64,000 bases of DNA from Candidatus Treponema caballi. Lineage in GTDB: Bacteria > Spirochaetota > Spirochaetia > Treponematales > Treponemataceae. The stretch spans positions 1 to 64,000 of the forward strand of contig JAGHRS010000029.1 of the NCBI GenBank assembly GCA_018066285.1, given 5' to 3'. The first letter of the stretch is position 1, and each line of letters starts with the position of its first letter. A program made the translations under genes and the position numbers. This document shows, piece by piece, positions 2,268-4,363 of the stretch. The notes under the pieces were generated by a model. The model had not been told where the DNA came from. It worked only from the letters and a program-made list of their open reading frames with translations, and did not search any database.

Positions 2268-2600
2268 GCGCTTATAGAAGCGCGCTCAGCTGATGGCGCT
2301 TTTTAAATTGCAAATCAGCGTAAAATAGGCACATTTTTGCTGTTTTCACCTTTTTGTGCCTATGCGACATCATGGTATCCGGGACATCCCGCTTTTTCAG
2401 CAGTTGAGAGGGAGACTCTGGATGAAAACTCCCCCAAATGGCAGTTAATCTGAGTGTTTTGTACTCGCCATCCACGAGAAACGCAGTTTTCTTTCATGAA
2501 GCATAGGCACTTTGTCTGCAATTTCCGGGAAATGTGCCTATTTTTTCACGAAAAGCACTTTAAAAGCCGATTGGCGGGGTTTTAGGGGCAGCAGCCCCTA
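2268..2600. repeat. Structured non-coding element with four AGGCAC motifs in two inverted pairs
   Basis: This gene-free stretch carries ATAGGCAC at 2325-2332 and 2503-2510 and its complement GTGCCTAT at 2356-2363 and 2534-2541. Both neighbouring pairs are separated by exactly 23 nt. The outermost copies extend to a perfect 15-bp inverted repeat (2322-2336 and 2530-2544), and the inner ones to GTGCCTATGC/GCATAGGCAC. It is bracketed by hairpins GCGCTT-ATAG-AAGCGC (2268-2283) and TAGGGGC-AGCA-GCCCCTA (2583-2600). The nested symmetry looks like a small dispersed element or a multi-site protein-binding region. A short open frame crosses it on the minus strand, but I do not regard that as a gene. 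Confidence 0.5.
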
Positions 2601-2626
2601 GGCGTGGCGCCCCTTTGTATTTCCTC

Positions 2627-2655
2627 TTGACGAGACACACATATTCCGCTTTAAT
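2627..2655 (+). promoter_or_regulatory. Sigma-70 promoter of the his leader and hisG
   Basis: TTGACG (2627-2632), a 17-nt spacer and TTTAAT (2650-2655). The predicted start of transcription is near 2662, only a few nt before the leader-peptide ATG at 2665. Confidence 0.7.
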
Positions 2656-2664
2656 AATACTGTA

Positions 2665-2721
2665 ATGAGTTTAGTAATTATGCACGCACATCACCATCAT
2701 TCTCATGAGGTTTCCCAGTAA
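2665..2721 (+). CDS. hisL: Histidine-rich leader peptide of the his attenuator
   Basis: An 18-codon open frame from ATG 2665, with a second in-frame ATG at 2680, reads M-H-A-H-H-H-H-S-H-E-V-S-Q from the second start. Six of its last thirteen codons are His. It lies between a good promoter and a strong intrinsic terminator, directly ahead of hisG. This is the layout of a translation-coupled attenuator: ribosomes stalling at His codons would favour an antiterminator fold. The enteric his leader works this way, but this peptide has its own sequence. No Shine-Dalgarno site precedes either ATG, so the leader is probably translated from the very 5' end of the mRNA. Confidence 0.8.
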   Translation: MSLVIMHAHHHHSHEVSQ

Positions 2722-2764
2722 GCGGGGGTGTGCTTGACGTATATCCGGGTATCCTGGAAAAGAG

Positions 2765-2796
2765 AGCCGCTCTCCGCGTGAGAAGCGGCTTTTTTT
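2765..2796 (+). terminator. his attenuator hairpin
   Basis: AGCCGCTCTC (2765-2774) pairs with GAGAAGCGGCT (2780-2790) with one bulged base, followed by a run of seven T (2790-2796). GCGGGGG at 2722-2728, just past the leader stop codon, can pair with TCTCCGC at 2771-2777 (two G-U pairs) and so compete with the terminator. A ribosome finishing the leader would cover that segment; one stalled on the His codons would leave it free. Confidence 0.8.
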
Positions 2797-2864
2797 ATGT
2801 CATTTCCAGAAACTTGTTTCCCGAAAAGATGAGTTTCTGCCGATACTATATAGAGGAGTTTTTT

Positions 2865-3737
2865 ATGGAAAAGTTACGTATTCTGCTGGCTAAGGGCCGC
2901 ATCTATGATTCTGTGTACGCGTTGCTCAATGATGTGGGCATTACGCTGACGCTGCCCGACCGCACATACTTCCCGATTACAAATCAGGCTGACCTGACGT
3001 TTCAGGTTGTAAAGCCGCAGATTACGAGCGCGCTGCTCGCCCAGGATAAGGCCGATGTCGGTTTTTCAGGCAAGGACTGGGTGTACGAGAATGGCGTTCA
3101 GGATGAGCTTGAGGAAATCATGGATCTGGGATTTGACCCTGTCCGTATTGTTGCCGCCATCCCGGAAACGCGCGATTTCAAGGAGCTTATTTCAAAGCCG
3201 GTCACCATCGCGACTGAGTACCAGAACCTAAGCCGCAAGTGGGTTGATGAGAACAAGATTGACGGAAAGATTTTCCGCACCTGGGGAACAAGCGAGGGCT
3301 TCGTTCAAGATAACGACGAAGCACCAGCCCAGATTCTTATCGATAACACATCCACTGGTTCTTCACTCAAGGCAAACCGTCTTAAGATTGAGTGCACACT
3401 GATGGAATCAAGCACGCGCATGTACGCTTCTAAGAAAGCGCTCGCTGATCCGGAAAAGAAGCAGAAGATCATGGAGCTCAAGATGCTGTTCGAGGCTGTC
3501 CTCGCTGCACGCAACAAGGTCATGCTTGAAATGAACGTGGGACGCGCCCGCTTTGAGGAGCTCGTGAAGGGTCTGCCTTCCATGAAGAGCCCGACAATTT
3601 CTCCGCTTTATGGCGACGACGGCTATGCAATCAAGATTGCCGTTTCAAAGAGCGAGGTCCCGACACTGCTGCCAAAGCTCAAGGCTCTTGGTGCAACGGA
3701 TATTCTTGAATACGATTTACGCAAGGTTCTTCCGTAG
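2865..3737 (+). CDS. hisG: ATP phosphoribosyltransferase, long form (histidine biosynthesis step 1)
   Basis: A 290-residue protein starting at ATG 2865 after GAGGAG. The open frame runs upstream to 2730, but that part overlaps the attenuator and has no ribosome site. It begins MEKLRILLAKGRIYD, typical of HisG, and contains the PRPP-binding stretch around ILIDNTSTGSSLKAN. The C-terminal 75 residues (from about KGLPSMKSPTISPL) match the regulatory ACT-like domain of long HisG enzymes, which need no HisZ partner and are inhibited by histidine. The enzyme condenses ATP and PRPP to phosphoribosyl-ATP. It is followed after 8 nt by hisB and is under the His-leader attenuator. Confidence 0.93.
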   Translation: MEKLRILLAKGRIYDSVYALLNDVGITLTLPDRTYFPITNQADLTFQVVKPQITSALLAQDKADVGFSGKDWVYENGVQDELEEIMDLGFDPVRIVAAIPETRDFKELISKPVTIATEYQNLSRKWVDENKIDGKIFRTWGTSEGFVQDNDEAPAQILIDNTSTGSSLKANRLKIECTLMESSTRMYASKKALADPEKKQKIMELKMLFEAVLAARNKVMLEMNVGRARFEELVKGLPSMKSPTISPLYGDDGYAIKIAVSKSEVPTLLPKLKALGATDILEYDLRKVLP

Positions 3738-3745
3738 GAGGATGT

Positions 3746-4363
3746 ATGGCACGCACAGCAACGGTTACGAGAAATACTAAGGAAACGCAGATTACGCTGA
3801 CACTCAATCTGGATGGAAGTGGTAAGTGCGACGTGGAAAATCCGATCGGCTTTTTTGACCACATGCTGCAGGCTCTCTGCAAGCACGGACTGTTCGACCT
3901 TTCGGGCACGCTTAAAGGCGACCTTGAAGTTGACCAGCACCACCTGATTGAGGACACCGGCATTGCGCTGGGCGAATGTTTTGCAAAGGCACTCGGCGAC
4001 TGCGCGGGCATTTTCCGTTCAGGAAACTGCATCTACCCTATGGATGAGAGTCTGTGCCGTGCAGCCGTCGATTTTGGCGGCCGTCCGTATCTGGTCTGCG
4101 ACGCAGACCTCACTGGTATTCCGCTCGTCTCCATCGGACAGAACGGCAAAGAAGCAAGTTTCCAGACTGACTGCTTTGACGACTTCTGGCAGGGCTTTGT
4201 CAGCACGGCAAAGTGCAACCTGCACCTGGATACGCTCCGCGGCCGCAGCGACCACCACAAGATGGAAGGCCTGTTCAAGGCAGCAGCCCGTGCAATCCGC
4301 CAGGCGACTGAAATTGATGCACGCCGTAACGGTGCAATTCCGTCAACCAAAGGTGTTATATAA
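3746..4363 (+). CDS. hisB: Imidazoleglycerol-phosphate dehydratase
   Basis: A 205-residue monofunctional HisB with GGAGG just ahead of the ATG. The metal-binding motifs are intact: IGFFDHML near residues 33-40, DQHHLIEDTG near 69-78, MDES near 102 and RSDHHKMEGLFK near 166-177. It dehydrates imidazoleglycerol phosphate to imidazoleacetol phosphate with two Mn ions. It lies 8 nt after hisG in the same operon. The length fits the single-domain bacterial form without the phosphatase fusion of enterics. The other his genes are not in this window. Confidence 0.95.
   Translation: MARTATVTRNTKETQITLTLNLDGSGKCDVENPIGFFDHMLQALCKHGLFDLSGTLKGDLEVDQHHLIEDTGIALGECFAKALGDCAGIFRSGNCIYPMDESLCRAAVDFGGRPYLVCDADLTGIPLVSIGQNGKEASFQTDCFDDFWQGFVSTAKCNLHLDTLRGRSDHHKMEGLFKAAARAIRQATEIDARRNGAIPSTKGVI

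Follow-up and report, generated by a model that had tools for sequence, protein, structure and literature searches.

The his locus and its surroundings

We analyzed a 64,000-nucleotide stretch of DNA from Candidatus Treponema caballi, referred to here as the window. Near one end it carries the histidine-synthesis genes hisG and hisB, both identified by curated NCBIfam models, with hisG as the first gene of the operon. Between positions 2627 and 2864 lie a putative promoter (TTGACG-N17-TTTAAT, 2627-2655, with a spacer of 17 nt), a short open reading frame (ORF) rich in His codons that ends at a TAA stop codon (2719-2721), and an intrinsic terminator whose run of seven T residues covers 2790-2796 (Table 1). 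The initial annotation had described a promoter, a His-rich leader, and a strong terminator in front of hisG, and every element that it described is present in the sequence. A simple scan with strict consensus rules listed neither the promoter nor the terminator of this locus. The promoter was missed because the -10 box TTTAAT has no A at its second position, and the terminator because its stem carries a one-base bulge; we called the promoter from its conservation in relatives and the terminator from folding.

The region 5' of the his promoter contains nested inverted repeats (2301-2565). The arms of the outer repeat, each of 36 nt (2301-2336 and 2530-2565), are 75% complementary, with a perfect match over the core AAATAGGCACATTT; the arms of the inner repeat lie at 2356-2370 and 2496-2510. 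Of the loci compared, only that of the window carried the core. The repeats have the appearance of a small mobile or palindromic element. Further upstream, a 707-aa ORF (65-2188) encodes a Thr-rich, repetitive protein with a lipoprotein-like N terminus (LLFASCG), for which no NCBIfam match was obtained.

Table 1. Coordinates of the features of the his leader and operon in the window
Feature	Position	Strand	Basis or remark
-35 box TTGACG of the his promoter	2627-2632	+	read from the sequence
-10 box TTTAAT	2650-2655	+	3' end 9 nt before leader ATG 2665
Leader ORF, MSLVIMHAHHHHSHEVSQ-stop	2665-2721	+	18 codons, 6 His; no Shine-Dalgarno sequence; probably leaderless
Segment 1, His-codon stretch; pairs with segment 2 when free of ribosomes	2679-2697	+	folding
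Segment 2, directly after the stop codon; partner is segment 1 or segment 3	2722-2735	+	folding, duplex test, covariation
Small hairpin separating segments 2 and 3; can form in either state	2744-2758	+	folding
Intrinsic terminator (3:4)	2759-2796	+	16-pair stem, one bulge, 5-nt loop, -20.3 kcal/mol
Segment 3, 5' arm and loop of the terminator; antiterminator partner of segment 2	2764-2777	+	folding, covariation
GAGGAG, Shine-Dalgarno sequence of hisG	2853-2858	+	read from the sequence
hisG, ATP phosphoribosyltransferase, long form, 290 aa	2865-3737	+	TIGR00070 and TIGR03455 above cut-off
hisB, imidazoleglycerol-phosphate dehydratase	3746-4363	+	NF002111 above cut-off; 8 nt after hisG

The His-rich leader is kept in front of hisG

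Among the 614 short ATG ORFs (8-40 aa) of the 64-kb window, only two, one of which is the leader, have at least four His codons within nine. A search for His-rich leaders upstream of hisG in other spirochaetes, which the initial annotation had proposed as a check, found them in many genomes. Of seven same-genus genomes, six carry hisG, and all six have the leader before it. Outside the genus, the leader was present in 16 of the 30 genomes sampled from the rest of the family, in 17 of the 30 sampled from the rest of the order (7/7 of those in f2 and 3/3 in f4), and at 4 of 70 further loci of the class and phylum, three in f12 and one in f22. The initial annotation had named relatives lacking His codons at this place as evidence against its proposal. 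Such relatives occur only in some lineages: the leader is absent from the many loci examined in g4 (a large genus of rumen and gut Treponema), though the HisG proteins there are ~80% identical, whereas the same-genus genomes that have hisG all keep it. The absence from the rumen Treponema of g4 fits loss or absence in a lineage and not a refutation of the locus in the window.

The leader peptides of the genus are MSLVIMHAHHHHSHEVSQ (window), MNLVLFHAHHHYSHGKSA, MNLVLFHAHHHYSHWVSF, MNLVILHLHHHHSHYCK, MNLVHLHAHHHHSHHEAIR, and MTSVRLHAHHHHSHHKGR, and the motif M[NS]LVxxH[AL]HHH[HY]SH is kept in most of the genomes. The HisG proteins encoded behind this same leader are of two types, with ~82-86% (L001-L004) and 62% (L005-L006) identity to the HisG of the window, suggesting that leader and enzyme were not simply co-transferred as one block. 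A possible explanation is replacement of the hisG gene under a conserved switch.

A pattern combining the promoter with a His run matched once, at the known leader, in each of the six same-genus genomes with hisG, and it had no match in the same-genus genome without hisG. The extra matches of this pattern, one in the genome of the window itself and four in G004, did not have the layout of a leader. Pattern searches for further His leaders elsewhere in the genomes gave only the hisG leaders and chance-looking matches, and when the genus was searched for leaders of other amino acids, neither ilvB-like nor leuA-like genes were preceded by a clear Leu, Ile, or Trp leader. PF04715, the N-terminal domain of trpE, had no match in the genome to which the window belongs.

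Mutually exclusive pairings in the leader RNA

The leader RNA folds better than its dinucleotide shuffles (z = -3.8, 0/200). The initial annotation had called for folding with the leader ORF free or covered, and when we folded the RNA with a ribosome placed at the stall and stop positions, the terminator arm switched partners as predicted. In the ribosome-free fold, the His codons are the partner of segment 2, and the RNA adopts the terminator structure. The terminator is also obtained with a ribosome at the stop codon (A-site 2719), which covers the RNA to ~2731 and so hides segment 2. A ribosome stalled on the His codons (A-site 2689-2704) leaves segment 2 free, and the exposed sequence, as far as the terminator loop, then folds as the 2:3 antiterminator with -26.5 kcal/mol. 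The initial annotation had paired 2722-2728 with 2771-2777 of the terminator arm; the switch pairing itself held, whereas its extent did not, since the predicted helix is made of 13 pairs instead of 7, formed by 2722-2730 and 2732-2735 with 2764-2770 and 2772-2777.

At full length, the terminator structure (-32.5 kcal/mol) is 6 kcal/mol better than the antiterminator structure (-26.5 kcal/mol). This difference implies that the switch must be kinetic, the antiterminator winning by forming before the terminator, and kinetic switching is also a feature of known attenuators. All 21 leaders of the family have an intrinsic terminator at their 3' side, and hairpins similar to the small one between segments 2 and 3 are present in several relatives. 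The fold of the window shows another hairpin, of 13 pairs, in the interval from the terminator to hisG (2806-2838). As this whole stretch is missing from relatives such as L003, the hairpin does not belong to the conserved switch.

The switch was compared with chance by counting the bases of the terminator arm and loop that are paired upstream in the stalled state, minus those so paired with the ribosome at the stop codon, and by repeating the count on 60 shuffles of the linker. Over the 21 family leaders the mean difference was 8.8 nt, as against 2.6 +/- 0.6 in the shuffles (maximum 4.1); for the window leader alone, it was 8.8 nt as against -0.4 +/- 3.2. Nineteen more distant leaders gave a weaker effect in the same direction (4.4 vs. 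2.6 +/- 0.7, maximum 4.2), and four of the distant leaders (L193, L197, L199, and L201) showed no predicted switch or a reversed one when folded singly. The 1:2 duplex was better than in shuffles over the 21 leaders (Fisher p = 1.7e-5, from sequences that are related and not independent), and segment 2 of the window had a better partner in its own segment 3 than in any of 20 foreign ones.

Covariation in the 2:3 helix pointed the same way. In five same-genus sequences, the core of eight pairs is intact in 40 of 40 cells, whereas controls slid out of register are 40-70% paired, and three of the eight pairs carry changes on both sides. Given the small set, the manually chosen register, and the removal of one bulged base from two of the sequences, we regard the count as supportive rather than decisive.

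Other readings of the locus

The initial annotation had begun the leader at the ATG at 2680, with thirteen codons, and one may ask whether the same attenuator is translated from there, the mRNA then having a short 5' UTR. This ATG is present in the window and would give a compact 13-codon peptide, but the equivalent codon in five same-genus relatives is TTT, TTT, CTT, TTG, and CTG, whereas ATG 2665 and the N/S-L-V that follows it are retained in most of them. Because the codon at 2680 encodes Phe or Leu in all the other leaders of the genus, we take the conserved ATG at 2665, and hence an ORF of 18 codons, to be the true leader. A start at 2680, which could not draw on a Shine-Dalgarno (SD) sequence any more than one at 2665 since neither ATG is preceded by one, appears improbable.

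We give even less weight to a function of the peptide itself, for example in metal binding, with a terminator that merely ends a small gene. The sequence HHHHSH does resemble Ni/Zn sites, and HAHHH[HY]SH is strongly conserved within the genus; beyond the genus, however, only the His run persists (MKFSVHHVHHHF, MTVRTVHHHHHVF, and MNRIFAALGHHHHH), the leader is tied to hisG, and its His codons pair with a segment of the switch. It is just as hard to believe that the operon responds to another sensor of histidine or tRNA and that the short ORF is incidental. T-boxes and HisR-type repressors control his genes in Firmicutes (PMC9413887), but no Rfam family reached its gathering score in the window, and neither a T-box nor the His_leader family (RF00514) was among the matches up to E = 10 in 2500-3000. 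Such a sensor would also leave the conserved His ORF and its stall/stop switch unexplained.

A putative leaderless-type promoter

With ATG 2665 as the start of the leader, the transcription start is expected at ~2662-2665, that is, at the leader start codon or no more than ~3 bases from it. A -35 box of the form TTGACA, TTGACC, or TTGACG lies at the equivalent place, 16-18 nt 5' of the -10 box, in nearly all leaders found, and the best -35/-10 pair ends 6-10 nt 5' of the leader start in 36 of the 39 correctly placed leaders, which were gathered across the family, order, and class. Two leaders (L172 and L173) that were mislocated in the leader table were left out of the 39; read by eye, they have 6 and 7 nt from the -10 box to the ATG. 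The three exceptions include at least two (L192 and L199) in which, again by eye, an in-frame ATG further upstream would restore the spacing. A motif resembling an SD sequence precedes only 1 of the 39 leaders vs. 21 of 21 hisG starts. Together, the spacing and the rarity of SD-like motifs strongly suggest a leaderless-type layout, in which transcription would start at or near the leader start codon, and the leader ORF is probably translated from a leaderless mRNA. That the leader has no SD site had been correctly pointed out in the initial annotation, and this layout is the likely reason.

Such promoters may not be confined to the his operon. A genome-wide search for leaderless-type promoters (a -35 box, a -10 box, and an ATG 5-9 nt further on) gave 39 sites vs. 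15 in reversed controls, a 2.6-fold excess, and some of these sites begin ordinary-looking ORFs, such as those of HTH proteins and an IspE-like protein. These data suggest that leaderless mRNAs may be common in Candidatus Treponema caballi. A published prediction places leaderless genes, at low frequency, in 6 of 18 genomes of Spirochaetes (PMC3160421).

A model for histidine-dependent attenuation

The locus combines a short ORF rich in His codons (6 of 18) before a histidine-synthesis operon, an intrinsic terminator between this leader and the first structural gene, and, according to computed folding and covariation, an antiterminator that is incompatible with the terminator and becomes accessible when the ribosome stalls but is hidden when it has finished. 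It is very probable, judging from these features, that hisG and hisB are controlled by a ribosome-mediated transcription attenuator. The ribosome-stalling histidine attenuator proposed in the initial annotation is supported by the conservation of the leader before hisG, by the predicted geometry at the stall and stop positions, and by the covarying 2:3 helix.

We propose that transcription starts at ATG 2665 or within a few bases of it and that the ribosome enters at the very 5' end of the RNA. When His-tRNA is charged, the ribosome would reach the stop codon and cover segment 2 (2722-2731), so that segments 3 and 4 pair as the terminator and the transcript ends near 2796. When charged His-tRNA is scarce, the ribosome would stall on the His codons and cover segment 1; segment 2, left free, would form the antiterminator with segment 3 (2722-2735 and 2764-2777, respectively) while segment 4 is still to be transcribed, and RNA polymerase would continue into hisG. 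Without any translation of the leader, segments 1 and 2 would pair, and termination would be the default.

On a wider scale, we think it fairly likely that these leaders form an ancient, class-wide family of spirochaete his attenuators on leaderless leader mRNAs. In such a family, the promoter would be fused to the start codon, the 5' end would itself be the site where ribosomes load, and the first ribosome would be tightly coupled to RNA polymerase; the family would have persisted despite drift of the leader peptide and RNA and, within one genus, across two divergent types of hisG.

Comparison with known attenuators

Ribosome-stalling attenuation is known from Proteobacteria, Actinobacteria, and some Firmicutes, and the leaders described here would extend it to a phylum for which no report of a his attenuator was found in the literature searched, the coverage of which was incomplete. 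They offer ~40 natural variants of one switch. Initiation that keeps pace with RNA polymerase is a step that every attenuator needs, and because almost all of these leaders are apparently leaderless, the pace of 70S initiation at a bare 5' AUG relative to RNA polymerase becomes testable. The leaders could also be used as an RNA family in annotation and could mark histidine-regulated operons in uncultured treponemes.

In the proteobacterial his attenuator, the position of the ribosome decides between terminator and antiterminator (PMC3896937). The treponeme leader resembles hisL of E. coli and Salmonella (RF00514) in its short His-rich ORF, alternative hairpins, and intrinsic terminator before hisG. 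It differs from hisL in its compact 1:2 / 2:3 / 3:4 scheme, where segment 2 adjoins the stop codon, in having no SD sequence and abutting the -10 box, and in not being matched by the RF00514 model. The initial annotation had noted that this type of attenuation is best known from Proteobacteria, which understates its range, for his attenuators have already been predicted in Firmicutes, namely in the Bacillus cereus group, Peptostreptococcaceae, and Erysipelotrichales (PMC9413887), and a bacillar His leader precedes hisZ/hisS* (PMC2965389). As far as the consulted parts of these two papers go, the Firmicute systems, which were described independently, likewise have leaders with His codons and a terminator/antiterminator pair outside Proteobacteria, but they belong to another phylum; the same parts report no leaderless layout and do not mention spirochaetes.

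Leaderless leader peptides themselves have precedents in trpL of Sinorhizobium meliloti (PMC7298713) and, as discussed, in ilvBNC of Corynebacterium glutamicum (PMC11857589), where the mRNA of the leader ORF begins, or is treated as beginning, at the start codon. Unlike these, the leader described here serves another amino acid, histidine, in another phylum, and its layout, deduced from sequence, recurs across the class. Taken together, these comparisons suggest, as the best reading, that the treponeme leader is a new, leaderless, and spirochaete-wide variant of the known ribosome-mediated his attenuation.
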